A DNA stretch of 30,210 bases from a virus. The first letter of the stretch is position 1. Every line of letters starts with the position of its first letter. The translations under genes were made by a program, and so were the position numbers. Below, one piece after another: positions 2,868 to 28,954 of this stretch. The notes under the pieces were generated by a model. That model had not been told where the DNA came from. It searched no databases and saw only the letters and a list, made by a program, of their open reading frames with translations. The DNA lies in the IMG/VR virus record IMGVR_UViG_3300031507_000023, positions 1-30,210 of that record. One strand, 5' to 3'.

Positions 2868-4381
2868 AGATCATCTCTACGCAGACATCAGACCCAAGTC
2901 AGTTATCGGAGTTTGAAAAGGATCAATGCTATAACGGACTGGATTGTTGTATTACTCACGAGGTATGGAACGCAATCAAATTCGGCCACAACGAACAAAC
3001 CATGGAGGAAGCGCAGACCTACGCCTTCTCCAAGGCCCTTCAAGGGCCAGTGCTTGAAATGAACGCCCGTGGCATCCTTGTGGATCAAGCCCGGCGCAAC
3101 GAGGTCCTTGAGGAATACCACGACGCCTTAGACCAACTCGAACGCCAGCTAACGCTTATTGTCCTCGAAGGTGTGGGGATGAAGTGGTTTAACTGGCGAT
3201 CGAATGATGATCTTAAAGCCCTGTTCTACACCCACCTTCAAATCCCGGAGATTAAACGCTATGGTAGGCCTACAGTCGATCGTGATGCTTTGGAGAAGAT
3301 GGAGCAATACACCGTTACCAAACAAATCATCGCACATATGTCCGCTATGCGAGAATTGGCAAAGGATATTGGAGTTCTCAAAACCGACATTGATACAGAT
3401 GGCAGGATGCGGACAAGCTATAACATCGCTGGAACTAATACCGGAAGATTTAGCTCGTCTTATTCCGAATACGGAACAGGCGGGAACGTACAGAACATCA
3501 AAGAGTCTCTCAGGTCTGTATTTATTGCTGATCCCGGATTCAAATTCGCCAAATTCGACGCAAAGTCCGGCGAGTCCTACGTCGTCGGCGCAATAGAATG
3601 GAATCTGTTCAATGATCCGACATACCTTGACGCTGTCGATTCCGGTGACGTGCATACAGCCGTTGCAAGAATTTGTTGGCCGGAACTTGGGTGGACTGGC
3701 AATCTCGCCCAAGATAAGGATATCGCTGAGACGCCATTCTATCGTCACTATACATATCGATTTATGTGTAAGAAACTTGGCCACGGTTCGAATTATGAAG
3801 GTCAGCCTACAACACTTGCTCAACAGTCAAAGCTTCCGGTTAACGTGGTTAGGCAATTCCAACCGAAGTATTTTGGTGCGTTCCCGGCCCACCTACGGTG
3901 GCACGCATGGGTCAAGGCGCAGGTATGGGCTAAAGGCTATATCGTCAATATCGCCGGACGGAAGCGATGGTTCTTAGGTCGACGGAATGATGCGGATGTG
4001 ATTCGCGAAGCAATTGCTTATGATCCGCAAGGTTCCCTTGCCGACATTGTTAATCAAGGCATGCTCAACACATGGCGCCAACGCCCAGCCATACTCATGG
4101 CCCAAGACCACGATGCAACAACATGGATGTATCCGGAGGAGATGGAAGATGAAGTTGTCCCAAAGCTAGAAGCAATGCTCGCGGTGGAGGTGCCGCTCAA
4201 CAACGGTCGCCTTTTGGCAATTCCATATGATTGCCAAATAGGTTGGAACCGAGGGAAATATGATGCACGGAAGAATCCCAACGGACTCGTCAACTACAAA
4301 GGGCACGATAATCGCCAAAGACAAACGGAAGCTGGAATCTTGGATAGACAGTTTCGTCGAGCAGACAGGAAATCTAGATAG
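2864..4381 (+). CDS. DNA polymerase I (family A), polymerase part
   Basis: 505 residues, starting in an ATGA overlap with the UDG-exonuclease gene. It begins with the end of the exonuclease domain, including ExoIII Tyr23-x3-Asp27 (CYNGLDCCITHEV). Then come thumb and palm: TNTGRFSSS and GGNVQNIKESLRSVF, and motif A with Asp232 (FAKFDAKSGESYVVG), where Ser/Glu replace the usual SQIEL pattern. The O-helix, motif B, runs Arg299, Lys303, His307, Tyr311. Motif C has His416-Asp417 followed by Ala418 rather than Glu. It replicates the phage genome. The last 40 residues are encoded in a 122-base overlap with the downstream ATPase gene. His307 corresponds to Phe762 of E. coli Pol I, a position linked to fidelity and nucleotide discrimination. 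Confidence 0.93.
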   Translation: MKIISTQTSDPSQLSEFEKDQCYNGLDCCITHEVWNAIKFGHNEQTMEEAQTYAFSKALQGPVLEMNARGILVDQARRNEVLEEYHDALDQLERQLTLIVLEGVGMKWFNWRSNDDLKALFYTHLQIPEIKRYGRPTVDRDALEKMEQYTVTKQIIAHMSAMRELAKDIGVLKTDIDTDGRMRTSYNIAGTNTGRFSSSYSEYGTGGNVQNIKESLRSVFIADPGFKFAKFDAKSGESYVVGAIEWNLFNDPTYLDAVDSGDVHTAVARICWPELGWTGNLAQDKDIAETPFYRHYTYRFMCKKLGHGSNYEGQPTTLAQQSKLPVNVVRQFQPKYFGAFPAHLRWHAWVKAQVWAKGYIVNIAGRKRWFLGRRNDADVIREAIAYDPQGSLADIVNQGMLNTWRQRPAILMAQDHDATTWMYPEEMEDEVVPKLEAMLAVEVPLNNGRLLAIPYDCQIGWNRGKYDARKNPNGLVNYKGHDNRQRQTEAGILDRQFRRADRKSR

Positions 4382-8289: not shown

Positions 8290-11200
8290 TTACTTTTCCT
8301 CTCTGGGTTTGGTCGTGCCTTTCAGCGTCCCCCGTGCAATGTCCCCAAATGTCTTGGGGTGGGCTTGTTGGTTAACAAGATCGATGCCGAAGCGAATGGC
8401 GTTGTCGACTGTCTTTGGTGCCATGCCGGTGCCATGGCCTAGGGCAGTTAGGGTATCGCCAACGGTCTTACCCATTCGGGCTTTGGTGAATGCGTCTTTG
8501 CGGCCGAGATCCTTTGCGGCTTTGACGATGTCATGGAGTGGACTGGAAATTAGCCCCACACCCACATCCTGACCGCTAAGAATACCATGCACAATATCAC
8601 GAGCATAGAGAACCGAGGAAGAAAGGCCAAGAAGGGATGCGGTTGCGGCATGCTCAAGCCATCCTCGTTTGTCATCGGTAGTGAGGCCTGTGACCCATTC
8701 CTCAACTAGGGTTGGCCAAATGACGTAGGCAAAGATGTCAGCGGTGATCGCAGGGATGTTCTTCCCCGCCGCAGTGATATCCCCCTGCTTCGCCAATCCC
8801 CAAGTATCATGAATATCCTGCGCAAGTTCTATCCGTCTCTGCATAACAGTACCAAAAAAACCATACACAGAAGTAAGCCAGTTGTGGAGAGCACCTCCGC
8901 CTCGGACCAGAGTAGGTTGATTAGTGACCGCAGTCGAGCCGTGAGCTAACCGCACCGCTGCGTCAGCTTCGTCGATTGATGGGCCATGATCTAGTCCTCG
9001 TTCTTGGGCATCACGGTAGGCTGCGAGCCATGTGGGTTTGGCGGAGAACATGTCGGATTTGGCTACTAGCCATGAGCCGGCTTGGATTATGTTCTCCCGC
9101 ACGCCCTTAGCCCCTTCGATCTCTGAATGTGCACCAAAGATCGTATCCTGCCAATGCCGTTCACGACGTTGGAGTTCTTCGCTCCACTTCATAGCGAACT
9201 CGTGATTGGCTTCAGTTAGGGATGGTGATCGGCCATAGAGATCTTGGACTGCACGAAGGAAGTTGGTGGTGCCAACTTGTCGGGAGGACATGACAAGGGC
9301 AGTTGGTCCGTGTTTGAAGGCCGTGAAGGGATTAAAGCCAATATAGGTGGAGATAACATTCTGCCTGAGGAACTCAGATATCTGTCGACCTTTAGCAGCA
9401 GCACGTGAGGGGATGGACTCTTGACCAGCAATCGCTTTGAGCCAAGGGAGAAGGAAATTTCTACCATTGTATTCTGCTCCATAGTGTCCGGTGATTGAGT
9501 TGGATAGGCTTGGGTCTTTGAATAGCTTTTGTGTTTCAAGGACGAAGCTCCTGAATGAGATATCATGAATCATCTGCCCAATACGGACAGGTGTCATATC
9601 GGGGTTGAGATCAAGTGGATAGGCTGCTCCGGATCGTTTCTTTGTATACCCATTGGAAGTACTGATATGGCCGAAATCTCCGTCATCATAAGCCCCATCT
9701 CGGATAGGAGACTTACCTTCAATATCGGGGTGTTTAATAAGTGGATGGTACCATCCTTCAAAGTTACCATGTATGTTGGATATTGGTTCGAGGTGGATCT
9801 TGTCGATGGTGATGCCATGGATGTGTTCATACTCCTGATCGGCAAGTTTAACGAGGTCGCCAAAGACATCCTTGCCAAGCTTCTGTGCACGGACCCAATC
9901 CCCTTGGCGAGTGTTGACCTCAAGCCATTTCATCAACGCAGCAGGGTCGGCACCATAACCTTTGGCGAGCACATTCCAGTTGCCCTTGTTGCCTGCGTTT
10001 TGTAGCATAGTGGCAACATTGCCCCGAGTGAAACGAATGAACGGTCTATCGGTGGTTGGATCATTGAACGGCGCTATGACTAGCTTGTCCTTATCCTCGA
10101 TCTCGCCAATGGCCTGATACTTACGTGCGAACTCACGTTGGAGGGCGGATTTACGATTAGCCGCCGCAGCAGCGGGATAGGTTACGTACTTGTTAAAGAC
10201 CGATTGCGGATCACGATTACCCATGCGGTTGAGGAAGGTTTCCATGTTCGTCACGGACGCAAGGAATGTCTTTGGCAAATCCTTCAGCTTATCCCATCGG
10301 GTCTTGGTGGCGTTGATTGGATTAAGTGGAAACTGTTCCACATGATCTTTCATCTCATCAATCACCGCCTTCCGATCCGCACTTTCCCCCGCTTTAATAA
10401 TCTTCTGCTCATCCCGTGCGTTCTTTATCAATGCATCAATCGTCTGCTTCGCACCCATGAAGTCATGAGTGGTAAGACTATCCACGGCCGAGAGTTTGCC
10501 ATCAACAATAACATCAGCAATAGGAATATCCCTATACCCATAGCTCTCTGCCAACTTGGCATCGGCAAATTCCTCCAAGGTCGCTTGTCGACGATCAAGG
10601 TTTTCTTGGATATTCTCCAATGATCGGCCAACTTTGTACCCCATTTGTTGGAGGAGGTTTTGGATATGGTTGAGATATTCGGGTTCGATGCCCTTTACGT
10701 CAGATTTGCGGAATGCCTTTGCGGCCTTGTCGAGTTTGGCCTTGGCCTTTTCTACATCTCGGGCCATCTGAGCGTAGATGGTGTTGAAGTACTGCGCTTG
10801 CTTAGAGGTAAAGGCATCGGCTGGCTTGTTGTTAAGCAATGCCATCTCCGCATTCTTCCCATGCTTCCCTGCTTCCCGCAACCATTTATCACTATCTATT
10901 GCCCGCATAGGAAGTGCGTCGAACTTCTCCTTAGCCGCAGAGACAAGTTGGTCCTTGGTGATTGATCCAAATGTTGACCCTGCCATTCCTGCAAGGGCGT
11001 GAGTCTCTTCGTGGAGTAGGTCGAGTTGGTTTTGGCTGAGGATCTGATCTTTAGCCTCCTCCAGAATGTTCTTTTCAAGGAATCCATGTTCGACTTCCAT
11101 CCTGCGGGCAATTTCTACGTCGATCAGATGACGTTGGAATCGCTCTCTGCCAAGGCCTGTGGCTTTGCGGGTTTCGTTAAGTCGTATAAGGCCAGCGACC

Positions 11201-14019
11201 ATTTGGTCCCCTGTTGGATAACCAAAGAGATGGGCGATGTCGTCGGGTTTAACCCCAGTTCGGCCGGTAATGTAATCATTAGGAAGGGCAGCGAGTTGTT
11301 CTTTGGTAAGGGATTCACGATCGAGCTTATAGGTGTTATCGAGCTTCTTCCCATTAAACTCGGCACTGGCCAGGAACTTATCCGCGGCAACGTCTGGCCG
11401 GGCATTAATGTCACGGAGTACGTCTGGACGCATTGCTTCGGACTTGGCTTTCCAATCCGAGGTTTGGCGCTTGGTTTGATCGGCTAGGACTCGACGGGAG
11501 GACGCTGCCAAGTCCGACGCTTGGCGAGCTTCGATCAACTTCATATACTGTTTATACTGCGGAATGGTCATCCCTACGTCTTTAGCCGCACGGAATGGTG
11601 GGGCGACCTCGGTGCCAGAGCCGGGTTCCATTGGTGCGGATAGCATAGGCGTCACATCAGGCCCAAGCTGCTGCCCACGATCACGAACCTCACCAGATTC
11701 AATCTTGCCAAATAGATCCTGATACGTAGGCTCAGCCCCAAGCACTCGACGGAGATGGCCTTTGATTGCCTCGATTAGTTGATCGAGCTTTTCAAATATC
11801 CGATCCACAGCAGTGAATGTTGCTGGATCACGTTGGCTCTTCTCCGTTCGCCAAGTGCGGAATGCCTCGGCTACGGATTCCTCGAGCTTGCCTCTAGAGT
11901 CTAATGTCTTATAGCGTTTATCAATATCAAACCGTTGATTCCAACCTTCGGCTTCGGATGCGGCTTTAAGCACTCCACGTTCTTCATCCGTGAATCTGTC
12001 CCACAATCCATGTACAGCTTCGTGGCTGAAGATCGCCGCTGGGTCATCCGCACCGAGGGAGATCATGATCAGGTTGCGGCCATCTTGGAACTTTTGATGC
12101 AGACCTGATGCTCGGCCACCGGGGTATTGAATGGAGTCGACGAAATTGACTTTAGTTGACCGTGGAAGGATTCGGTCCGCATCGTTGAGGATGTCGTTGA
12201 TAGTTTGGTTTTCAACCCTAGTGCGATTCTCACCGAACTTGGCAAAGACGTTATAGCCAGGGTATGGTTCGACCCAGGTTCCGGTGGTGAGGTCGCGGAA
12301 TTGTTTATCGGTGGCGGATGGGTCGTGATCGAATTCAGAGAGTTTGATCCTGGGAATTGCAGAAGGTGCGCCTGTGCTACCTGCGGTTTCTCGTGCACCA
12401 GAGACTCGATGACCAGTTATATACTCCGCATTGGGAAACTCAGTCTTAATCTGACGAATCAGTGAGCGCATCAATGCGCCACCAAAGTTATTGGGGTTGT
12501 AGTATTCTCCAAGGCCATTGATCATTTCGACATAGAGATCTTTGCCACCCTTTTGTTCGGAAAGGTTGAGTGTGCCAACAGATTGGCCATTTTCATTAAC
12601 CATGTCGAAGTCATGGAAGCCTTGAAATGCACGAGCATTCGAAGCAGCCATCTTGCCTTCGTCTGAACGTCGCTGAAATTCAGATCGTTGACCTGCGTTC
12701 AAAGTATTCCAATCAAGCCCTTCAGCAGCGGCTAGTTCATCGGGGAAGCGATCATCACCAACATCACGCGCTAGTCGCTTAAGCTCTAGCTTCCTATCCC
12801 CGATTGAAAACATCGGCTCCATGCCATTAGCCGCACGGACTACGGGGATGGTTTCGTCTACGGTTGGGATTGGAGGTGGGGCGACCTTTAGATCCTCGGC
12901 TTCCTTCGCCGTAATCCCCTCAGGCACAACCCGTAGATCATCATGCAGCGCCTTATGCACCTCTGGATCAACCTTGGCAATCCAGTCCGCCATTGGGACT
13001 GTGATATCCGCCCCTGTTTCCTTAGCCACCTCAAGCTGCTCTGCAAGATTCGGCACCCAGCCTAGAATCCCGTCGTCAGCGCTAGGAAGCTTATCACCGT
13101 AAAGTCGTAGAGCCGCTTCACCACTAATCCCCATGGTCGCGCCATTGGTGTGTTGGTCGACGAAGTCACGAAGGAGTTCAGGCGCACGCTCACGACCAGG
13201 GACAGCTTGAGCGTCTTTGATCTTTTCATCAAGCAGGTCGAGTGCGGATTGGTTGAGTTCGGTTTTGAGCTTGTCGATCTCGGGGTGAATGCCTGCTGGA
13301 GGAACCTTGTCTGAGGCAAGCCAAGGACGGGCTTTGTCAAGGACCTGCATTGGGCCTTCGGCTCCGCCACCAAGGCCTTTAACCCCGATATCGCCCCGCA
13401 TCATGGAGTATTCGGCCATGCCAGCTACATCGTCAGCGAGCTTCTTGCCGCCAACGGATTCGAGCATGTCGTGGGAGGCGTGGATTGCGCCGCCGATTGA
13501 ACGAGATAGGCCCTCGAAGCCAACTTCACCCAAGCCTACGATTTGGCCCAAGGCTCCGTATGCGGCCGTTGCGGCGTGACTGCCTCCGGTCATATCAAAG
13601 GTTTTGGCAAATTCTTCGTCGGAGCCAAAGCCGGTGTAGAACTTCCGTGTGTTGATTGGTTGATCGCCAAAGCCTTCGCGAAATGATTTGCCAAGACCGG
13701 TTAGGCCATCGGATAGTTTGTCGAGTTCGCCATAAGAGTCGTTGAAGATCTGGCTATTGAGTGGATGCCGTTGAACGAAGTCAGCGATGTATTGATTCCG
13801 CCCCACGATCACATTCGACGCAGCGACCTTGGTGTTTCGTTCAAAGGATTCAAGGTCGCCAGAGATGATGGATGCGGGAACTCCAGTCACCTTCTCAAGC
13901 TGATAGGCTCGTGCGGAATCATCAGGGTTCACATCAGCATTCGCCGCAACACGAGATGATGCGCCAGCGCCATAGATATTGCGGATCGTGCCGGTGTAGT
14001 CGAGATCGTCATCGGCCAT
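8290..14019 (-). CDS. Giant internal virion (DNA ejection) protein with zincin motif
   Basis: About 1909 residues from the ATG at 14019 (AAAGG upstream, 11-base overlap with the preceding gene); an ATG at 14064 lacks a Shine-Dalgarno. Its size and position after the gp14-like and transglycosylase genes match the large ejected core protein of podoviruses (gp16 role), which helps carry DNA across the envelope. Visible parts: an N-terminal region rich in Gly/Ala helices (around 100-210), an acetyltransferase-like segment at 470-545, a metallopeptidase motif HEAVH at 666-670 with a downstream glutamate helix (LEESVAEAFRTW), a second HEETH at 1003-1007, long charged helices, and a C-terminal third with apolar stretches that may contact membranes. 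It resembles phage polyvalent proteins built of many associated domains. Confidence 0.85.
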   Translation of the reverse strand: MADDDLDYTGTIRNIYGAGASSRVAANADVNPDDSARAYQLEKVTGVPASIISGDLESFERNTKVAASNVIVGRNQYIADFVQRHPLNSQIFNDSYGELDKLSDGLTGLGKSFREGFGDQPINTRKFYTGFGSDEEFAKTFDMTGGSHAATAAYGALGQIVGLGEVGFEGLSRSIGGAIHASHDMLESVGGKKLADDVAGMAEYSMMRGDIGVKGLGGGAEGPMQVLDKARPWLASDKVPPAGIHPEIDKLKTELNQSALDLLDEKIKDAQAVPGRERAPELLRDFVDQHTNGATMGISGEAALRLYGDKLPSADDGILGWVPNLAEQLEVAKETGADITVPMADWIAKVDPEVHKALHDDLRVVPEGITAKEAEDLKVAPPPIPTVDETIPVVRAANGMEPMFSIGDRKLELKRLARDVGDDRFPDELAAAEGLDWNTLNAGQRSEFQRRSDEGKMAASNARAFQGFHDFDMVNENGQSVGTLNLSEQKGGKDLYVEMINGLGEYYNPNNFGGALMRSLIRQIKTEFPNAEYITGHRVSGARETAGSTGAPSAIPRIKLSEFDHDPSATDKQFRDLTTGTWVEPYPGYNVFAKFGENRTRVENQTINDILNDADRILPRSTKVNFVDSIQYPGGRASGLHQKFQDGRNLIMISLGADDPAAIFSHEAVHGLWDRFTDEERGVLKAASEAEGWNQRFDIDKRYKTLDSRGKLEESVAEAFRTWRTEKSQRDPATFTAVDRIFEKLDQLIEAIKGHLRRVLGAEPTYQDLFGKIESGEVRDRGQQLGPDVTPMLSAPMEPGSGTEVAPPFRAAKDVGMTIPQYKQYMKLIEARQASDLAASSRRVLADQTKRQTSDWKAKSEAMRPDVLRDINARPDVAADKFLASAEFNGKKLDNTYKLDRESLTKEQLAALPNDYITGRTGVKPDDIAHLFGYPTGDQMVAGLIRLNETRKATGLGRERFQRHLIDVEIARRMEVEHGFLEKNILEEAKDQILSQNQLDLLHEETHALAGMAGSTFGSITKDQLVSAAKEKFDALPMRAIDSDKWLREAGKHGKNAEMALLNNKPADAFTSKQAQYFNTIYAQMARDVEKAKAKLDKAAKAFRKSDVKGIEPEYLNHIQNLLQQMGYKVGRSLENIQENLDRRQATLEEFADAKLAESYGYRDIPIADVIVDGKLSAVDSLTTHDFMGAKQTIDALIKNARDEQKIIKAGESADRKAVIDEMKDHVEQFPLNPINATKTRWDKLKDLPKTFLASVTNMETFLNRMGNRDPQSVFNKYVTYPAAAAANRKSALQREFARKYQAIGEIEDKDKLVIAPFNDPTTDRPFIRFTRGNVATMLQNAGNKGNWNVLAKGYGADPAALMKWLEVNTRQGDWVRAQKLGKDVFGDLVKLADQEYEHIHGITIDKIHLEPISNIHGNFEGWYHPLIKHPDIEGKSPIRDGAYDDGDFGHISTSNGYTKKRSGAAYPLDLNPDMTPVRIGQMIHDISFRSFVLETQKLFKDPSLSNSITGHYGAEYNGRNFLLPWLKAIAGQESIPSRAAAKGRQISEFLRQNVISTYIGFNPFTAFKHGPTALVMSSRQVGTTNFLRAVQDLYGRSPSLTEANHEFAMKWSEELQRRERHWQDTIFGAHSEIEGAKGVRENIIQAGSWLVAKSDMFSAKPTWLAAYRDAQERGLDHGPSIDEADAAVRLAHGSTAVTNQPTLVRGGGALHNWLTSVYGFFGTVMQRRIELAQDIHDTWGLAKQGDITAAGKNIPAITADIFAYVIWPTLVEEWVTGLTTDDKRGWLEHAATASLLGLSSSVLYARDIVHGILSGQDVGVGLISSPLHDIVKAAKDLGRKDAFTKARMGKTVGDTLTALGHGTGMAPKTVDNAIRFGIDLVNQQAHPKTFGDIARGTLKGTTKPREEK

Positions 14020-16123
14020 CGGCTTTGCCTTTGGTCTGTAGCTGACGTAAGACTTGGCCGGCATAGATGCGTTGGATCATGTCGTCGGTTGGCATAATCC
14101 CACGTTCGTCTTGGACTTGTTGGACGATTGCAGCGCGATGCTTTTCAGGCACACTGACGTTATAGACTGGATCAGAACTGAAGTTGGACCCAAAGTAACC
14201 TGTGCCTGGGACTCGTTGAAGAAGCTGTTGGCCAATCTCGGTTATGGCCTTGGCATCGGCTGGCTTCTTGTTGTCTTGGGCGTAGAATTCTAGAGCATTC
14301 TGAAGCGAGCCAACGAATCGATCATAGCCCTCTGTGTCGCCTTTGCGCGTGATTTGGGCCGATTCCATGGTTGGGCGGAGGATTTGAAGGGCGTGCATAA
14401 CTCGAGGATCGGCCTCGGCATTGGCCTTCTTGGCGATTTGAAGATTGACCAACTCCTTCCTCGCACTCATCGGCAACGCTGCACCAACCACATCCGTGTC
14501 CATAAACGCAGCTGGGTCAGATTGAGCCATGCCTTTGAGGCGTTGGTATTCGATCAGGTTGTCTTGGGTCCAAGCTGTGTCGCCTTTGGCATTGTGAGCC
14601 AGCACAGTCATATATCGGCGTTTGTCACTATCCTGCATCTTTTGCCAAGCGGCTTCGACTTCAGGGCCTTGGCCCTTCAACTCCTCAACAGTGGTTGGGA
14701 TCTTGCCGCCTTTGTCGCCACCGATTAGGCCACCTTCAACCGTCTGGCGATTCTTATAGTCGTCGTCTCGTTTGGCTGCGAGGGTCATGTTGTGGTCGGT
14801 GATAATACGCGACTCGGCATAGTCAGCAAGGAGGGGATCATTCGGCGATTGCTGATCAGCCTTAGTCCGACCCGAGGCGATTTGATCCTGAAGCCCTGCA
14901 TTGCGGGCTAGGATGGCGTTGGTGTTGCGTAGATAGCCTGGGACTGTGGTACCATTGGCATCCTTGGCATTGCCGGCGTCTGCTACGGACTTGCCTGAGA
15001 ACCACTTTGAGGCGGCTTCGTTAAATGATCCGCCATCGGTCATGTATTTGCCAAACACGGATTCAAATAGCTTATCCTGTGCACTCGGTGATTGTAGGAA
15101 CTCCTTCCCTGTCATCGCTGGCATTCCAGCTTGTTTAAGAAAGTCTGGCAGAAACTCCTCCATCACTTGGTATCGACCAAGGGCCCTTCCGTGCGATGTC
15201 TGAACTCCAAGCGATTGGTAATTGTTACCGCTTTCGAAAGTGCCGATTGCAAGTTTCGCTTGTGGCATTGAAACTGGCTTCGATCCCCAGCTAAGATCGC
15301 TACCCGACATAACCTCGCTAGATATATTACGTGCACCAACTGTGTGAGTAGCGTCGCGGACAATCGACGTGAGCCGACCAATGTCTTCACCATTTATCTT
15401 TCCGTCCTTTGTGGCTTGGCTGAGAAGCTTATCTGCCATGAAGGGTTGTTGTCTGGCGAGCCCGGTAATGCGGTCATACCACAGGTCGGAGACGGCTTTG
15501 TGGTTGGCATTGTCGATGGTATCTTGATCGGCACCCTTTTGTTGCCATTGCGCCGTGGTTTCTTTGATGGTCGTGGCGACATGTTCTTGGAAGCCTTTCT
15601 CATCGGTTGGGTCTACGAGTGCGGCGTTGCGGGATGCTTGGACTCGGGCAGCGGATGCGCCGATGGAATAGCTTTTGTTCTCAGACGCGGCATGGCCAGC
15701 ACCATTGAATATGGTCCGACCCATAGTTGAGAAGCTTTCGCTTTCGAATAGCTTCTGGGACATTGGGTTGGATAGGCCGTTTTGGATATCGAGACGGGTC
15801 TTCTTGAGGCTATCAATATAGCTTGGATAGGCCTCAACCGCGTCCTTGCCTTGCAATGCGCTGAAGTCCGCATGTGCCTTACCTGCTTGCTCGGCATAGT
15901 TGGCTGCGGCGGCATTGGCTTCGCTGTGGTTTTTGAGTTGCTGCATAGCATCAGCACGTGACCAAAGCTCATTGCCAACCTGGGAGAATGATCCGCCTAG
16001 TTCGGTTAAGGCCTGGGCTGTGGCACCGCCAAAGGCTGCTGTTGGAGTATCGGCAGAGTAGCGCGGAAGTGGTGCGTCTTCAGGACCAACCGATGGTACG
16101 CCTGAGTATGGGACATTAGCCAT
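14009..16123 (-). CDS. Internal virion protein with lytic transglycosylase domain
   Basis: 704 residues. A long Ala/Gln-rich helical N-terminus (about 30-260) precedes a lysozyme-like SLT domain at about 290-400: catalytic Glu297 in IGTFESGNNY, then SHGRALGRYQVMEEFLPDFL, LFESVFGKYM and EAASKWFSG. Such proteins are packaged in the podovirus head or core, are ejected, and locally open peptidoglycan for the DNA channel. The rest is helical with charged linkers. The start ATG is 8 bases inside the end of the gp14-like gene, and its 3' end overlaps the giant ejection protein gene. In T7 the transglycosylase sits on gp16; here it is on the smaller of the two large core proteins. Confidence 0.9.
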   Translation of the reverse strand: MANVPYSGVPSVGPEDAPLPRYSADTPTAAFGGATAQALTELGGSFSQVGNELWSRADAMQQLKNHSEANAAAANYAEQAGKAHADFSALQGKDAVEAYPSYIDSLKKTRLDIQNGLSNPMSQKLFESESFSTMGRTIFNGAGHAASENKSYSIGASAARVQASRNAALVDPTDEKGFQEHVATTIKETTAQWQQKGADQDTIDNANHKAVSDLWYDRITGLARQQPFMADKLLSQATKDGKINGEDIGRLTSIVRDATHTVGARNISSEVMSGSDLSWGSKPVSMPQAKLAIGTFESGNNYQSLGVQTSHGRALGRYQVMEEFLPDFLKQAGMPAMTGKEFLQSPSAQDKLFESVFGKYMTDGGSFNEAASKWFSGKSVADAGNAKDANGTTVPGYLRNTNAILARNAGLQDQIASGRTKADQQSPNDPLLADYAESRIITDHNMTLAAKRDDDYKNRQTVEGGLIGGDKGGKIPTTVEELKGQGPEVEAAWQKMQDSDKRRYMTVLAHNAKGDTAWTQDNLIEYQRLKGMAQSDPAAFMDTDVVGAALPMSARKELVNLQIAKKANAEADPRVMHALQILRPTMESAQITRKGDTEGYDRFVGSLQNALEFYAQDNKKPADAKAITEIGQQLLQRVPGTGYFGSNFSSDPVYNVSVPEKHRAAIVQQVQDERGIMPTDDMIQRIYAGQVLRQLQTKGKADGR

Positions 16124-22091: not shown

Positions 22092-23027
22092 TTAGAAGTT
22101 GTTGTAGATTATGGTTTTGAATAACGGCATCATGGTGTTCTGTCCAGCGGTTGAGGGATGAACTAAGGCATTCACCGCACACCCACCAGCACCGACTTCA
22201 GCATAACGACAAGCAGAAGCTGAACAGGTGTTGTTAATGGCAGTGTCTAAGTCTGGACCTTGAATAATAGTTGTGCCATTAACAACCGCTGCCTGCGCTG
22301 CACGAATTGTAGCCGAGGTACAGCCATAGGCATAGGTCTCGAGTGGAACTATCCATTTGCCAACAAAACCTAGATTTGCCGCAACGGTGAACCAAGTTTG
22401 CATAAAGGCTTGGTAAGCTGACTGAGACGTGCCATTGATACCATCAGATTCGCCTTCCATAGAGATAATGGCATTGACTCGAGAAGGTGGGATTCCCTGT
22501 TCATTAAGAGTAAAGAATGCCAATGGAAGAAGATAACCAAGCGGTCCGCTGGGCATAAATTGAGAGATCGGCTGACCTGCTGAAGATGGATTAACCCAAA
22601 TCACACGATCATATTTGCCACCAGCGATAAGGAGATCACAAAGCTTAGCCCACATGGAAGAATAGACAGGCCAGCCTTGATAGCCATTAGCGCTAAAGGT
22701 AGAACCTATTTCTGTCCCACCGGTGTTGTTTAGATATGCCTTACGATCACCGGTGAAGTTTATGGTTCGGCAATCTTGTGTGGCTACATAGTTTGACTGT
22801 GCGTGAGAGCCGCCTAGGGATTGACCTACGACAACGAATACGAAGGTATTGGCGGTGAGTGCGGCAGAGCTAAGGGTCAGGCCTGAGGTGTTGGTAAATC
22901 GTGTGGCCTCGCCATTGCCTGGAGCGGCATAGAGATTAGGCGGAGCGGTGCCTGAGGAGGCGTGCTGGGCATGGCCTGAGTTGAATGAACCAAGGAGTAG
23001 GAGTAGAACTAAGAATATGCGGCGCAT
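22092..23027 (-). CDS. Secreted SGNH hydrolase, sialate O-acetylesterase-like
   Basis: 311 residues. The Sec signal peptide (residues 1-20, RRIFLVLLLLLGSFNSGHA) is followed by an SGNH esterase pattern: block I strand VFVVVGQS with nucleophile candidate Ser70, a block with GESD at 192-195 (ISMEGESDG) as in carbohydrate-esterase or sialate O-acetylesterase domains, and His290 before PSTAGQ in the last block. The mature part has six cysteines. The enzyme would remove acyl groups from glycans, plausibly host O-antigen or capsule. Phage esterases of this type are usually parts of tail spikes without signal peptides, so export is unexpected. Start overlaps the previous stop (TAATG). Substrate is inferred. 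Confidence 0.78.
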   Translation of the reverse strand: MRRIFLVLLLLLGSFNSGHAQHASSGTAPPNLYAAPGNGEATRFTNTSGLTLSSAALTANTFVFVVVGQSLGGSHAQSNYVATQDCRTINFTGDRKAYLNNTGGTEIGSTFSANGYQGWPVYSSMWAKLCDLLIAGGKYDRVIWVNPSSAGQPISQFMPSGPLGYLLPLAFFTLNEQGIPPSRVNAIISMEGESDGINGTSQSAYQAFMQTWFTVAANLGFVGKWIVPLETYAYGCTSATIRAAQAAVVNGTTIIQGPDLDTAINNTCSASACRYAEVGAGGCAVNALVHPSTAGQNTMMPLFKTIIYNNF

Positions 23028-24244
23028 TAGTTCATAACCTCCCAGAGGTTAATAAACCCACCACCGTTACTGTCATTCCAGCTACAAGTACCTGCGGAGC
23101 TTTTAATGCGGACGGTGTAAGTTAGTGGACCGATGGAGGCAGGGAAGTCAGAGCCAGCGAAGTTAACCACAGTGATATAGGTTGCAGCGGTTGAGCCAAA
23201 TGCGCCGGGGACAGCGGAGCCGACTGGAACACCGCCACGGGCCATTTGAAGGGTGCAGAGGGTGCCTGAAGCTGCGGTTAGGTTGTTCTGGATGCCAAAC
23301 GACCAACCAACGGAATTGACCGGGCTGATTAGTGTGATTGGTGCAGTGACGTTAGTGTCGACTAAGGTAGCGCTAGCGGTGGTTGATCCAGTAGATGCAG
23401 CAAAGTTAACCGTGACACCGTTAAAGGTTTCACCGGGCTTATGAATACCTCGGCCGTAGAGTTGGATCTTACTCGGCGCATTGGCCCATACACCAGAGAC
23501 GGTTTGGCCACTGTTGAAGTCAAAGTAGCCAAGTAGGCGCACTGGAACAGTGGTGAGTGCTGCGGTGGAGTAGTATACTCCTGCGGATGTGGCATTGGTA
23601 CAGGCATTGCATGCGGTTGTGGTAGGGAATGAGGTTTCGTCGATGGTGGTTATGGCATTGGCGGTAGCGGCTTTGATTACACCAAGAGCTACTGTGCCAG
23701 CGTTGTTGAAGGCTACGATCTCGATTCGGGTTGGGGTTGCGTTGGCTGCGCCGAAGGTTGAGCCAGTCGCGCCTGTGGCAAAGGATAAGGCGGCAGTAAC
23801 GGAGACTGAAGTATAGGTTCCGGTTGTGGCCGTAGCGTTGCGGAATGAGATCAGACACGGGACCGCGACAGATGGATCGGCACCAGATTGGGTTTTGAGC
23901 GCAACGCCAAAGGTGTTAGCCGCGCCTGACCAAGCAAGGGTACAGTTGGTGACGGAATCGGAGTCGTTGACGCTAGCGGATGGGGCTGCATAAGTTCCAT
24001 CTGCACGAAGGAAGGTGGTTGTACCACCTGGAAAGGGAATATTTCCAAAGCCTCCAGAGCCATTGTTGGTTTGAAGACTGCCTGTGGCTCCACTAGGACC
24101 GCCAAAGACACTGAATGGAATCTGCCCTGGGATACCCCCAGCGACTGTACCACATGCGGTCTGGGGGGCGAAGACACCGTTGCATTGTGCCAATGCGCAA
24201 GTTGGCAGAAGAAGTAGGGCGAGTGCGAGGAGAATTCGTTTCAT
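23027..24244 (-). CDS. Secreted fibre-like protein
   Basis: 405 residues from the ATG in an ATGA overlap. Residues 1-20 form a Sec signal peptide (KRILLALALLLLPTCALAQ). The mature protein is Gly/Ala/Thr/Ser-rich and beta-rich. It has a fibre-style opening (LQTNNGSGGFGNIPFPGG, TTFLRADGTYAAPS) typical of phage tail-fibre and collar proteins, and a C-terminal beta domain ending GGGFINLWEVMN. Eight cysteines include ACNAC. The combination of fibre-type sequence and export signal is odd. It could be a virion fibre whose hydrophobic N-terminus has another use, or a truly exported surface or decoy protein. Confidence 0.75.
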   Translation of the reverse strand: MKRILLALALLLLPTCALAQCNGVFAPQTACGTVAGGIPGQIPFSVFGGPSGATGSLQTNNGSGGFGNIPFPGGTTTFLRADGTYAAPSASVNDSDSVTNCTLAWSGAANTFGVALKTQSGADPSVAVPCLISFRNATATTGTYTSVSVTAALSFATGATGSTFGAANATPTRIEIVAFNNAGTVALGVIKAATANAITTIDETSFPTTTACNACTNATSAGVYYSTAALTTVPVRLLGYFDFNSGQTVSGVWANAPSKIQLYGRGIHKPGETFNGVTVNFAASTGSTTASATLVDTNVTAPITLISPVNSVGWSFGIQNNLTAASGTLCTLQMARGGVPVGSAVPGAFGSTAATYITVVNFAGSDFPASIGPLTYTVRIKSSAGTCSWNDSNGGGFINLWEVMN

Positions 24245-24666
24245 TGGAGTAACGTCCATCCACCGGTTTCGAGAATTGGTTTGAGAAGGAATGCGCCGAA
24301 GTTGGATTGGAGACGGATAGTAGCAAGGCCAGAGATTGTTTCAGCACCGGATGGGTTGATGGTGTAGGTGTTGGCTGAAGCAAACCCACCAATGTCGACG
24401 ATGGTGATAGGGACTAGAACCCATTGGCCCGGGATGGCTTGAGGGGTTTGTGGTGTGGCTTTGGATGAAGGGAGGTTGATGGTGACGTTGGCATTGGCAT
24501 TGATGGTGATTAGGTTAGTGCCACGGGAGATGGCATAGGTCCCCGTGGCAACTATCGGCAACACAGCTTGTTGCGGAACGGTGATCCAGCCAACCGACGG
24601 ACCAAGGTAGAACCGTTCGAATTGGCGAAAGGTGCCACCTTGGTCGAGGTCGGATTGGCTACCCAT
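24241..24666 (-). CDS. Putative tail fibre/structural protein
   Basis: 141 residues without signal peptide or cysteine. It is beta-rich, with NLITINANANVTINLPSS, NTYTINPSGAETISGLATI and the closing LKPILETGGWTLLQ, a pattern often seen at the end of phage fibre proteins, where ladders of strands build a trimeric shaft or tip. The start overlaps the preceding stop (TAATG) with GGAGAG upstream, and its end overlaps the secreted fibre-like gene (ATGA). A structural role is inferred from composition and position. Confidence 0.7.
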   Translation of the reverse strand: MGSQSDLDQGGTFRQFERFYLGPSVGWITVPQQAVLPIVATGTYAISRGTNLITINANANVTINLPSSKATPQTPQAIPGQWVLVPITIVDIGGFASANTYTINPSGAETISGLATIRLQSNFGAFLLKPILETGGWTLLQ

Positions 24667-25210: not shown

Positions 25211-25711
25211 CTATAGTTCAATTGCGATTATGGTAACGTTGTTGAGACTGCAAGTGCCGCCGGTGAGGGCAGTGAGGTCGATGTCATACCAATAGGCGGT
25301 ATTGACTATTAGACCTGTAGCATAGCCCTCAGCCGCAGCACCAAACACAGCCGCAGCGGTGCTGGCGTTATTGACTGTGGCAGATAGAGCCCCGGCTGAT
25401 GTACCTGAGGGAGCAGCGGCGTTGGCTGGTGCGGAGCCTGTGCCGAACTTTATAATCCAAGAACATCCATCGCTAGCAGTGTTGTTGCTGATGCCAAAGG
25501 TGATGAGGAATAGGATATTGCCGGTGGTTTTAGGGGTAATGGTTCCTGCCATCCCCATCATTACGCCAGTGAGTGAAGTGGTACCAGTAGGATTGGCAGG
25601 AGATGCAGTGGTTCGGGCTCCAAGGGGATTGGTGTTGCCACTGATGGTTTGTGCCCCAAGCGGCGTGATGCCAATGGCAAGGGCGAAGAGTGCTGAAAGG
25701 AGCCGCTTCAT
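25211..25711 (-). CDS. Secreted beta-rich small protein
   Basis: 166 residues. The start at 25711 is fixed by an ATGA overlap and by the signal peptide that follows (KRLLSALFALAIGITPLGAQ). The mature part is Thr/Ala/Gly-rich, with strands such as TGNILFLITFGISNN and GYATGLIVNTAYWYDIDLTAL, resembling the head domain of tail-fibre and spike proteins, and ends NNVTIIAIEL. It has two cysteines, in DGCSW and GTCSL. An apparent longer ORF upstream is the shadow of the neighbouring gene. Function unknown; export is predicted from the signal peptide. Confidence 0.72.
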   Translation of the reverse strand: MKRLLSALFALAIGITPLGAQTISGNTNPLGARTTASPANPTGTTSLTGVMMGMAGTITPKTTGNILFLITFGISNNTASDGCSWIIKFGTGSAPANAAAPSGTSAGALSATVNNASTAAAVFGAAAEGYATGLIVNTAYWYDIDLTALTGGTCSLNNVTIIAIEL

Positions 25712-26961
25712 TGGATTGTTCCATGGATGAAGCCAACGGTGGATAGGGTTAGGGTTGAGCAGGCGGTGGAGGAGATAGCCGCAGTTATGCCAACGGAGAA
25801 GAACTCCAACGGTTGCGGAGCGTAGTTGATTGAGCCTATGCCCCCTGCGGCAATTGGGATGCAGTCTTGGAGATTGCCTGAGGCAGTCCCAGCGGTTGTG
25901 GAGCCGTTGGATGGAGCCGTCGCGGAGTTGAAGATCATAAGCCAACATGCAGCGGTGCAATTGGCATAGCTGCCGATTAGATGGCCAGCGGCGATTTTGA
26001 GGACAAGAGACGATGCAACTGAACCAGTAACGGAGGATACTGCCGTTGGTGCATTACCAGCAGTGTCACCGATTGTGACTTGGTTGATTTGCATAGTCGA
26101 TTGGATGCTAGGGCCAACCGATGCGTTGACGACTTCGAACAAGGCGTTGAGTTGGTTAACATCAGGTCCAGCGGAACCACGGGTGGTGAATGCAACCAAT
26201 AGCAATTGGCCATTGGTCTGGTTTTCCATATACCAGAGGATGTTGTCACCACGGAATAGGATGACGTATTTGTAGGAGCCTGTGTCGGTGTGTTGCGGAG
26301 TGCAGTTGCAACCGGCGGAGAAGGCACCAGAGACACCAGCAGTGGCGACTGGGGTAAAGCCTTGGGCAACGGATAGGTCGGCAATGATGGTCTTGCCACC
26401 TGAGGCCCAGGTTACCGCACGTAGCTTGCCATCAGTTCCGTCTTCGAAGCCAACGCAGTTGGTGCAATAGGCAATGGCGGTTGGGGTGGTTGGTGCGGTG
26501 CCAAAGCCAATGAACTCAACGGTATTGGTTGTGGAGGGGTTGGAGAGGTTGATGTTGGATTGGAAGAAGAGATAGCCTGGGTTCTTGTCGAAGAAGGCTA
26601 GTTGGGTTTGAAGTACGGTGAAACCATTTGCGGTGGTGCCACCAGCGAGAGTGGTTTGGCCCACAGCGTTGGATGCAGCCACACCACCATTGCCGGTGGA
26701 TGGGGTTAGCCAACGATTGATGATGTTGAGTGTGCCAGTGGAGAAGTCATCAACGAAGAGTTGTTTGGTTTGATCTGGCCACTGTTGTAGCCATCCGCCA
26801 TTGGTGGTTGGGATGACGCCGATAGGGACGCCTTGGGTTCCGTTGGAGAATGTGCCCGCGATTGGGTTGACGGGCACACCGCCGGGGATTGGGAACTGTT
26901 GGGCGAGAAGGGGTACGATTAGAGCGAGGGATAAGACCAGCCCCGCGATTAGTTTCTTCAT
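25708..26961 (-). CDS. Secreted fibre-like protein with lectin/jelly-roll-like region
   Basis: 417 residues with GGAGG six bases before the ATG. A Sec signal peptide (KKLIAGLVLSLALIVPLLAQ) is followed by a proline/glycine linker, then a beta-sandwich-like region (KQLFVDDFSTGTLNIINRW, NPGYLFFQSNINLSNP, TVEFIGFGT, YKYVILFRGDNILWYMEN) reminiscent of concanavalin A-like lectin or LamG folds, and a C-terminal module (SLVLKIAAGHLIGSYANCTA, GFIHGTIQ). Eight cysteines occur, in close pairs (YCTNC, GCNC, NCTAAC). Binding to glycans is a reasonable inference; no catalytic residues were identified. It may be a spike or an exported adhesin-like product. Confidence 0.75.
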   Translation of the reverse strand: MKKLIAGLVLSLALIVPLLAQQFPIPGGVPVNPIAGTFSNGTQGVPIGVIPTTNGGWLQQWPDQTKQLFVDDFSTGTLNIINRWLTPSTGNGGVAASNAVGQTTLAGGTTANGFTVLQTQLAFFDKNPGYLFFQSNINLSNPSTTNTVEFIGFGTAPTTPTAIAYCTNCVGFEDGTDGKLRAVTWASGGKTIIADLSVAQGFTPVATAGVSGAFSAGCNCTPQHTDTGSYKYVILFRGDNILWYMENQTNGQLLLVAFTTRGSAGPDVNQLNALFEVVNASVGPSIQSTMQINQVTIGDTAGNAPTAVSSVTGSVASSLVLKIAAGHLIGSYANCTAACWLMIFNSATAPSNGSTTAGTASGNLQDCIPIAAGGIGSINYAPQPLEFFSVGITAAISSTACSTLTLSTVGFIHGTIQ

Positions 26962-27302
26962 TTGATCCTCCGATTTCTAAGTTCTCGGCTAAAGGGGAAT
27001 AGGGTGGCTCCGGTACTGACTAAACTCTGGTCTCGGGTCAATAACCCATGGTAGGAGATCAGGTCTGCGGTGACGGATAATAAGGCCAGAAGGGCTAAAG
27101 CCACGTAGAGAATGACCGAGAACGAAGCAACAAATGAACGCTGTGGTTGGGGTATAGAGTGGGAAATAGAAGGTGGCGAGGATGGCAAATCCCCAAACAG
27201 CCATCGAAGGATACCATACCAAAGCGCAACCAAGGGCGGTGAACGGGATGAGTGCGGCGAGTCCGAATTCGAACCAGAGTTGTAGGTAGTCATTGTGTAC
27301 AT
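26958..27302 (-). CDS. Candidate small membrane protein overlapping glycan ligase gene
   Basis: An ORF out of frame with the 3' end of the O-antigen-ligase-like gene. The last 60 codons look protein-like: a membrane segment (VILYVALALLALLSVTADLIS) followed by SYHGLLTRDQSLVSTGATLF and a basic end (SRELRNRRIK). Its stop forms ATGA with the next gene, and its last codons contain that gene's GGAGG. The N-terminal half is low-complexity, so the true start is uncertain and may be an internal GTG. It could be a real small gene or only the shadow of the ligase C-terminus. Confidence 0.35.
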   Translation of the reverse strand: MYTMTTYNSGSNSDSPHSSRSPPLVALWYGILRWLFGDLPSSPPSISHSIPQPQRSFVASFSVILYVALALLALLSVTADLISYHGLLTRDQSLVSTGATLFPFSRELRNRRIK

Positions 27303-28035
27303 ACTCCGGGTGCATTAGATTAGTGGGGGTTAGGATGTAGATACTGATGAAGGAGTTTGCGGACCAACCGAACCAAGAAAGGCCATGGATTGCTGAAGCC
27401 CAAATGGTTAGGCGCTCGATGTCGGATGGGGAAGTTGGGGCAAGGATTAGGAGAATGGCGGTCAGAGCGCAAAACACCCCAACGGACCAATGTAGACGTG
27501 GGGCTACGCCACAGGCGAGCACAACCCATCCACCTCGAGAGCCGCTAAGGATTAGGCCTGGGAGGAGGGATGGGATGTAGAACCATAGGCGATGTTGAAG
27601 TAGGCAAAGAATGAGGAGTGCGGATGTTGCGCCAAGAATGGTTCGGTTGTAGAGCAAGCCAGCGACGTTGCCTTTGTAGGCGACGGGGATAGGGGCGTAG
27701 CCGAACCATTGGAAGATGGCGATTGCGGAGGAGATGGATAGGCCATAGGCTAGGCCCTTGTAGAGTGGAGTTGGATCCTCAGTTGATTGGCCTAGTTGAA
27801 AAGATAGACCCCACAAGACTACTAACATGACGCCGAAGATAGTGTCATCGACTTGTGGGGTCCACAAGGTGCCAAGGATGGCAAAGGCAATGAAGCCAAA
27901 CCATACTCGGGAGATGGGAGCGTAGTGGAGAAGGATAGGCAAGGCGAGGCATAGCACGGCCCATTGCGTCGGGATTGACGCCCCAGTGTAACCTGGGATG
28001 AAGCAAACGGGAAGCAATAGGCCGAAGTAGAACAT
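26989..28035 (-). CDS. O-antigen ligase/polymerase-like membrane protein (Wzy_C family)
   Basis: 348 residues with about 10-12 membrane segments from the N-terminus on (FYFGLLLPVCFIPGY, WAVLCLALPILL, VWFGFIAFAILG and others). It carries Wzy_C landmarks: Arg167 in LSGSRGGWV, the segment RLTIWASAIHGLSWFGWSAN, and a periplasmic loop with His247-Asn248 followed nine residues later by Gly258, which fits the WaaL signature H-N-x9-G exactly. Family members transfer or polymerise lipid-linked O-antigen in the inner membrane. It starts in a TGATG overlap inside the late operon, between genes for secreted proteins. Expected effect: altered host surface glycans. Whether it ligates, polymerises or blocks host enzymes cannot be told. 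Confidence 0.82.
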   Translation of the reverse strand: MFYFGLLLPVCFIPGYTGASIPTQWAVLCLALPILLHYAPISRVWFGFIAFAILGTLWTPQVDDTIFGVMLVVLWGLSFQLGQSTEDPTPLYKGLAYGLSISSAIAIFQWFGYAPIPVAYKGNVAGLLYNRTILGATSALLILCLLQHRLWFYIPSLLPGLILSGSRGGWVVLACGVAPRLHWSVGVFCALTAILLILAPTSPSDIERLTIWASAIHGLSWFGWSANSFISIYILTPTNLMHPEYVHNDYLQLWFEFGLAALIPFTALGCALVWYPSMAVWGFAILATFYFPLYTPTTAFICCFVLGHSLRGFSPSGLIIRHRRPDLLPWVIDPRPEFSQYRSHPIPL

Positions 28036-28469
28036 CAGTTCAAGCTCGGACAGAAGTAGCCGATCTTATTACCCGAGGCGGAGGTTTGGGTAATGGTCAG
28101 GGCGGTGGTGGAGGTGGAGTAGGTCTCAGCAGCGAGCACAGCTTGCCAGCCTAGGATACAGGCTGGGGCGGTGACAAAAGCAGTGCCGAAGACTACGGTT
28201 GCGGTGGTGGCAGAGGTGCCCATGGTGATGACACCGGAAGAGTCGTTGCCAGCAATGGTTGGGGTACCAGTGCCGGTGATTGATGGCCCAGGCCGAGGGG
28301 TGGAGGGGAAGAGGAGATGGCCTGGGAAGTAGACACCGTTGTTGGTGTCTACGGAGAATGCGCCGGTGGTGTCTTGGCTAAGCTGAAGGGCGCGAGTGAT
28401 GGTTTGGGCGAGGGCATAGCCTCCGGCCAAACAGAGGATGAGGATAGATGGGAGTAGGTATTTCTTCAT
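28035..28469 (-). CDS. Secreted small beta-rich protein
   Basis: 144 residues with signal peptide KKYLLPSILILCLAGGYALA, cleaved before Gln. The mature part has ALQLSQDTTGAFSVDTNNGV, a short linker with PSTPRPGPSITGTGTP and a compact beta domain (VITMGTSATTATVVFGTAF, APACILGW, IGYFCPSLN) with two cysteines. The final domain resembles beta domains found at the ends of phage fibre proteins (GTP...G...V.FGTAF...PAC). GAGG lies nine bases before the ATG. Function unknown; it precedes the glycan ligase gene and is coupled to it. Confidence 0.72.
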   Translation of the reverse strand: MKKYLLPSILILCLAGGYALAQTITRALQLSQDTTGAFSVDTNNGVYFPGHLLFPSTPRPGPSITGTGTPTIAGNDSSGVITMGTSATTATVVFGTAFVTAPACILGWQAVLAAETYSTSTTALTITQTSASGNKIGYFCPSLN

Positions 28470-28474
28470 GGCGG

Positions 28475-28954
28475 TTACCTCAGTTCATACCATTTGGTGG
28501 TTCCAGCGGAGTACTGAAACTCAACCGATGTTTTAGCCGTGATGGTTTGGGATGCATAGGTGGTATTGAGGGATGAACCTGCCCCTGCTACAACAGTAAC
28601 CATTGAGGTCAAGGTTGTGTCAGAAGCAACTGTTACAATCTCACCGTCGAATGGTCCAACGGGAAGGTTAACCGTCCATGTAGTAGGGGCGGTGCCAACC
28701 CAGTAGACTGTGGAATTGGCTTGGGTCAGAGTAGTGGTTGGGTTGCCTGAAGCTGATGGGACAACCAATAAACCCGCTCCATTGCGCACTTGATTGATGC
28801 AAAGGAATTGAGATGGTCCACCAGGGCCTTGACCGGCATTCCAGCATTCATTGCCAGAAATAGCATTCTGAGTGACTTGCTGAGCAATGGCTACAGAGGC
28901 TAGGGCTACTGCAATAGCAGCCCCACCGAGGAAGAGTTTGAGGCGTTTGTTCAT
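28475..28954 (-). CDS. Secreted small beta-rich protein
   Basis: 159 residues with signal peptide NKRLKLFLGGAAIAVALAS then VAIAQ, cleavage before Gln. Two cysteines near the start of the mature protein (NECWNAG, FLCINQV) could pair. The C-terminal part (TWTVNLPVGPFDGEIVTVAS, SVEFQYSAGTTKWYELR) is a fibre-tip-like beta domain similar to those of phage structural proteins that end in a KW-Y element. It follows the capsid cement gene and lies six bases before the next secreted gene. Role unknown. Confidence 0.72.
   Translation of the reverse strand: MNKRLKLFLGGAAIAVALASVAIAQQVTQNAISGNECWNAGQGPGGPSQFLCINQVRNGAGLLVVPSASGNPTTTLTQANSTVYWVGTAPTTWTVNLPVGPFDGEIVTVASDTTLTSMVTVVAGAGSSLNTTYASQTITAKTSVEFQYSAGTTKWYELR

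Follow-up and report, generated by a model that had tools for sequence, protein, structure and literature searches.

The window, the whole stretch of DNA that we analyzed, spans positions 1–30,210 of IMG/VR record IMGVR_UViG_3300031507_000023 (30,210 bases) and contains on its minus strand a gene for a Wzy_C membrane protein, here called wzy. The ORF at 26989–28035 had been recognized in an initial annotation, whose coordinates prove exact. It starts with an ATG at 28035 and encodes 348 aa on the minus strand; coding on the plus strand is ruled out since the translation is riddled with stops. While the assignment as a Wzy gene stands, that annotation overlooked a second coding frame at 26958–27293, which overlaps wzy in the +1 frame and very probably corresponds to a separate gene. 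The features of the locus are as follows.

26989–28035, minus strand: wzy, Wzy_C/WaaL-fold membrane glycosyltransferase of 348 aa (ORF, Pfam, AlphaFold2 model, homologs)
26958–27293, minus strand: predicted nested gene of 111 aa, read in the +1 frame relative to wzy, with an N terminus of ~57 aa, one transmembrane (TM) helix, and a conserved tail of 36 aa (conserved in 21 of 23 homologs)
27289–27297, minus strand: codons CAC AAT GAC of H247-N248-D249, holding the nested ATG (27293–27291) in the +1 frame (AAT in 21/21 homologs bearing the nested gene)
27304–27307, minus strand: Shine-Dalgarno-like GGAG, ~10 nt upstream of the nested ATG, from the P243-E244 codons CCG GAG (GGAG or GGAA in 18/21)
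27072–27122, minus strand: predicted TM helix of the nested protein, residues 58–74 (hydropathy)
26961–27068, minus strand: conserved outward tail of the nested protein, ADLISYHG...LFPFSRELRNRRIK (alignments A4, A9, and A15)
28035–28469, minus strand: upstream neighbor, 144 aa, Sec signal peptide; its stop shares bases with the wzy ATG (TGATG), and the same family lies upstream of wzy in relatives
25708–26961, minus strand: downstream neighbor, 417 aa, Sec signal peptide; its start lies inside the stop of the nested gene (ATGA)

The product of wzy is almost certainly a GT-C enzyme of the WaaL type. The Pfam profile Wzy_C (PF04932) matches it in a genome search with an E value of 2e-8 and 33.5 bits, above the cut-off of 31.7 bits, while hmmscan on the ORF alone gives 6e-6 and 26.5 bits, slightly below that cut-off; seven of the 11 members of a family alignment (A6) match the same profile at E ≤ 0.01. 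The protein contains both S166-R167-G168-G169 (SRGG) and H247-N248-x9-G258, and no variation is seen at S166, R167, R208, W212, G223, H247, N248, D249, G258, P292, and G307 in an alignment of 22 sequences at 29–73% identity. This bears out the earlier description of a Wzy_C protein with the SRGG arginine (Arg167) and an H-N-x9-G signature (His247, Asn248, Gly258). An AlphaFold2 model computed from the family alignment (pLDDT 81, pTM 0.83) has WaaL (PDB 7tpg) as its sole significant Foldseek match in the PDB. Residues 1–322 of the model align with residues 16–407 of WaaL with a Z score of 18.7 over 287 residues, at 17% identity between the two proteins, and the next structural matches are FtsW (Z 8.8) and RodA (Z 8.5). 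WaaL was found by structure comparison only, the Wzy profile having no match among PDB sequences. The comparison with WaaL and Wzy structures that had been suggested earlier thus finds a GT-C fold of the WaaL type present rather than missing. The likeness extends to the whole fold, the H-N-x9-G signature, and the invariant arginines (matched at the motif level), but the phage gene differs from WaaL in sitting in a late block and in being overlapped by the nested gene. The model leaves the last residues of Wzy (321–348), its frame-0 tail, disordered, and these are barely conserved among homologs. Judging from the chemistry of the family, the enzyme would take an undecaprenyl-pyrophosphate-linked glycan at the periplasmic face and pass it to an acceptor via R167, R208, and H247, although membership in Wzy_C does not by itself tell polymerases, ligases, and O-oligosaccharyltransferases apart.

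A second gene is found in the +1 frame of 21 of the 23 wzy genes, and its ATG is embedded in the codons for the catalytic HND residues (cACA-ATG-ACt). It is 109–118 codons long, except in one homolog (L039) with 206 aa. Across 16 diverged lineages, stops in the +1 frame number 34 over the 62 codons leading up to the nested ATG and zero over the 62 codons that follow it. We derived a null expectation by resampling synonymous codons with the codon usage of each contig while keeping the Wzy sequence fixed. Under this null, +1 frames open after the ATG in the 16 lineages have a joint probability of ~1e-16, a value which, like the other joint probabilities given here, is an approximation that assumes independent lineages (which should nearly hold for synonymous sites at 30–45% protein identity). 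The codon AAT, which accounts for 25–55% of Asn codons per contig, is used at N248 in all 16 lineages (joint P 1e-5), and a third-base G precedes the Glu codon, as in the Shine-Dalgarno motif, in 14 of them vs. 6.3 expected (P = 5.6e-5). In seven of the 16, including the window, the nested stop overlaps the start of the next gene (ATGA or GTGA).

Long open +1 frames are not unusual in these viruses, with a 65-codon +1 window open at 9–26% of positions in other genes of the same contigs, and the nested ORF might accordingly be a by-product of codon usage and a conserved Wzy sequence, with no product. We consider this highly improbable and have rejected a chance ORF on the open-frame statistics and on control genes that lack a nested frame. 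Apart from the joint probability of ~1e-16, the conserved tail extends past the Wzy stop, substitutions in it follow a +1 third-position pattern (see below), and the ORF is absent from 11 bacterial Wzy genes, from those of phages D3 and epsilon15, and from a relative whose wzy has no tail. This last gene (L038) has AAC at N248, CAG instead of GAG, +1 stops, and no Shine-Dalgarno motif. In the 11 bacterial Wzy_C genes, about half of which have AAC, only 3–23 +1 codons are open from the equivalent point; the figures for the D3 and epsilon15 polymerases are 17 and 3, and neither gene contains a +1 stretch of 60 codons. L037 (5734–5931) keeps the Shine-Dalgarno motif and the ATG, but its nested ORF stops after 65 codons, together with wzy, and lacks the TM tail, which possibly represents a decayed or an ancestral state. 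Sequence statistics and controls together indicate that the nested frame behaves as overlapping genes do, being open beyond chance and under purifying selection, and we are highly confident on these grounds that the nested gene is real and translated.

The pattern of substitutions shows which part of the overlap is protected in which frame. In close pairs, changes in the tail are concentrated at frame-0 first positions, which are the third positions of +1 codons, and hardly any fall on frame-0 third positions, the opposite of what is seen in the remaining wzy (0.17/0.04/0.02 for L018/L019, 0.08/0/0 for L002/L003, and 0.32/0.17/0.19 for the window and L002). The pair L002/L008 is an exception, in which the +1 pattern is absent from the tail. 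Changes at +1 third positions mean that the tail is protected in the +1 frame. The stretch from the ATG to the TM helix follows frame 0, so Wzy mostly dictates the sequence of the nested protein's N-terminal half. Since constraint passes from frame 0 to the +1 frame at this junction, we also considered +1 programmed ribosomal frameshifting near codon 311, which would extend Wzy at its C terminus by a further TM helix and a periplasmic tail. The 12 sequences aligned have no indel from the last frame-0 motif to the tail, which would fit such an event, as would the bacterial Wzy_C-TM-TPR layout described below, which is a single chain. Frameshifting does not, however, predict an ATG, a Shine-Dalgarno motif, and a stop-free +1 frame starting exactly at that ATG ~65 codons earlier. 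Moreover, there is no conserved slippery motif at the junction, and frame 0 of wzy likewise stays open throughout the tail region. An AlphaFold2 model of the fused chain, one 45-residue helix with a disordered tail, was uninformative, MAFFT having misplaced the short rows of the tail and left it without aligned relatives. Frameshifting is improbable, and we have set it aside as the main explanation on the grounds that protection of the +1 frame begins at the HND ATG and that start and Shine-Dalgarno motif are conserved. Nested initiation at a GTG or TTG beside the TM helix was dismissed because the positions of these codons are not conserved.

What would be made from this locus, then, is two overlapping membrane proteins, a polytopic Wzy-like enzyme and a nested protein of ~111 aa translated from its own start. 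The TM segment occurs at a conserved place in all 18 nested proteins tested and is the sole one in 17 of them. Residues ahead of it include basic but no acidic ones, so the protein is probably oriented N-in, C-out, with a predicted cytoplasmic N terminus, a single TM helix, and a conserved periplasmic tail. The tail, with the consensus ADLISYxG...LFP[FW]..[IL]RxR, follows the TM helix and is +1-encoded in all relatives but two. Searches of Pfam and PHROGs with the nested protein gave nothing significant. The best source for its ancestry is the homolog in L039 (5184–5804), whose 206 residues run 370 nt beyond the wzy stop and which is the only one with a tetratricopeptide repeat, or TPR, match (TPR_9, E 0.001, under its curated cut-off). 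In six bacterial Wzy_C proteins, a TM helix and a TPR-like extension can be recognized by eye, in frame after the core, and for one of them (L043) Pfam confirms Wzy_C followed by TPRs. In these bacterial proteins (e.g., G016:C114, locus L043), the Wzy_C core is thus succeeded at the same point by a TM helix and TPR; they differ in that everything is encoded in one frame as one polypeptide, whereas the phages encode the TM helix and tail in the +1 frame, which has a start codon of its own. Sequence homology between the two modules was dropped, hhalign of phage nested tails vs. bacterial in-frame tails giving a probability of 0.3%, which leaves homology unsupported. The bacterial architecture and the TPR in L039 nonetheless lead us to see the nested protein as the equivalent of that C-terminal module, translated on its own. 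By this analogy it may be a partner of the phage Wzy that would assist the enzyme in trans, an idea to which we give slightly less than an even chance.

Relatives of wzy were found in 22 further IMG/VR viral contigs, at about 29–75% identity, and in none of 50,697 cultured-phage records (INPHARED, tblastn). Bacterial genomes gave remote matches only: two genome scans produced a single partial match of 30%, and weak matches occur in 39 of 148 genomes from the phylum of that match. In the window, the late genes lie on the minus strand and encode a GP7-type major capsid protein, a Bbp16-like protein, two tail proteins, internal virion proteins, and a GH108 endolysin, while replication genes on the plus strand encode DNA polymerase A, a uracil-DNA glycosylase (UDG), and a DUF3987 protein. 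The capsid protein is ~43–46% identical to those of epsilon15-type podoviruses. The epsilon15-like relatives L002, L003, L015, L034, L037, and L038 have the same order as the window, with capsid, Bbp16-like, and signal-peptide genes followed by wzy. In six relatives (L002, L003, L008, L015, L034, and L038) wzy is flanked by the signal-peptide gene and the next late gene, which answers the question, raised with the initial annotation, of whether related phages carry it at the same place, and which means that it is not a decayed recent insertion. Elsewhere, with gene names assigned by eye from sequence, wzy lies between portal-like and capsid-side genes (L005), after a capsid-like gene (L039), or ahead of a terminase-like gene (L018, L019, and L024). 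Found beside such different structural and packaging genes, the pair moves between phage backbones while remaining in blocks of this kind.

Known phage Wzy enzymes belong to temperate phages and prophages, namely, the Pseudomonas phage D3 and the Salmonella phage epsilon15 (PMC4815439), VarioGold (PMC9658991), and a prophage of Acinetobacter baumannii K127 (PMC9241936). In VarioGold, the Wzy gene VG_p25 lies near a tyrosine recombinase (PMC9658991), and the A. baumannii K127 Wzy is described as "always in prophage" (PMC9241936). In the annotations of D3 and epsilon15, the polymerase gene and the late genes are on opposite strands, and the integrase and an α-polymerase inhibitor are encoded nearby. 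These are lysogenic-conversion genes, whereas wzy in the window is co-oriented with capsid and tail genes. Genes for lysogenic conversion are expected in temperate phages, beside an integrase; here, tyrosine integrase (PF00589) was not found in 16 records, including ten relatives of ~50–62 kb, nor was resolvase (PF00239) in 12, several of the records being fragments and these two families not covering every route to lysogeny. The remark that no integrase was in view in the window therefore extends to all records tested. The K127 Wzy and VG_p25 resemble wzy as phage-borne Wzy or Wzy_C proteins that change, or are predicted to change, the host surface glycan, but they are prophage or moron genes of temperate phages for which we saw no report of a nested gene. 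The earlier interpretation, an enzyme acting on host glycans just before lysis, is supported in part, for its WaaL/Wzy-type fold, late position, conserved place, and lack of a detected integrase, while missing that the locus is an overlapping gene pair.

The D3 and epsilon15 systems resemble the window pair in one respect, since a phage Wzy-type enzyme is accompanied by a small membrane protein. In these phages, Wzy-β comes with Iap, a small membrane protein that inhibits the host α-polymerase (PMC4815439; annotations), and the nested protein, likewise small, single-TM, and beside a phage Wzy, could be an Iap-like inhibitor of the host O-antigen polymerase or ligase that lets the phage enzyme take the lipid-linked glycan. 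We consider this unlikely. The nested protein has no sequence match to any family, as an inhibitor or otherwise; Iap is encoded by a separate gene in both phages; and the TPR in L039, together with the bacterial in-frame TM-TPR, points to a partner of the same enzyme. The D3 and epsilon15 polymerases have no nested +1 ORF and no significant sequence homology to the Wzy described here. Overlapping frames that yield two membrane or envelope proteins are also known from the Rz/Rz1 spanins, but those proteins are unrelated to the ones described here, and an inner start within the catalytic codons of the outer gene is a feature of the window pair. Our literature search turned up no description of a gene nested within one for Wzy or WaaL.

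Six late genes near wzy, all on the minus strand, encode proteins with clear Sec signal peptides (22092–23027, 23027–24259, 25211–25711, 25708–26961, 28035–28469, and 28475–28954). The signal peptides mostly end A|Q or LAQ, the clustering is repeated in relatives, and one of the six proteins has weak similarity to SASA/SGNH esterases. Exported proteins within a fiber-like block are unusual. The Wzy_C domain is common to O-oligosaccharyltransferases such as PglL, and the phage protein could be such an enzyme, glycosylating the Sec-exported fiber-like proteins encoded nearby. Signal-peptide genes are indeed clustered around wzy: six of the window's seven lie at 22–29 kb, and signal peptides are predicted in 38 of 184 ORFs within 5 kb of wzy vs. 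one of 35 farther off. Against this, the protein has no match to the PglL-specific Pfam domain, and wzy has no signal-peptide neighbors in L018 and L024. We therefore judge this alternative improbable; no phage oligosaccharyltransferase acting on virions was found in the literature search. A broader version, a late-expressed glycosylation system of lytic phages in which the WaaL-fold enzyme acts on Sec-exported fiber-like proteins or on the host surface with the nested protein as an obligatory subunit, seems to us similarly improbable.

We favor surface-glycan remodeling as the role of the enzyme, with slightly more confidence than doubt. The fuller picture, a phage Wzy/WaaL-type enzyme that acts with a small nested membrane partner in late remodeling of host surface glycans, is one that we regard as evenly balanced. 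Both proteins would come from the late transcript, in phages without recognizable integrases, and the host surface glycan would be altered before lysis, so that fewer progeny might be lost to readsorption and rivals might be kept out. Known phage glycan polymerases work in lysogens, while wzy genes of the window type sit in a late operon with no sign of lysogeny, and a glycan change would therefore serve the lytic infection itself. The overlap is unusual in that codons of a catalytic motif, and those just ahead of it, also supply another conserved gene with its start and ribosome-binding site, an arrangement kept over ~16 lineages at ~30–45% identity. Annotation pipelines would probably drop the nested gene. 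Two questions follow from the locus, namely, whether phages in lytic infection change the glycans of their host before it lyses, and whether a Wzy_C enzyme depends on a detachable TM/TPR module. A single silent base change, AAT to AAC, should abolish the nested start and leave the enzyme unaltered.

Several further observations were made in these contigs. In L002, the gene 3′ of the nested ORF (11075–11207) has 44 codons vs. 420 in the close relative L003, probably through a deletion or frameshift. The wzy homolog of L004 contains an in-frame TGA (457–459, RLW*YIP), which could be a nonsense change, a sequencing error, or recoding. A single ORF of 1924 aa (8290–14064) separates the genes for internal virion proteins from those for lysis on the minus strand of the window. 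The plus strand has a domain of the uracil-DNA glycosylase superfamily fused to a 3′-5′ exonuclease domain (1764–2867), followed by a separate gene for the polymerase domain of DNA polymerase A (2864–4381), the two together making up a split family-A polymerase with a UDG head.
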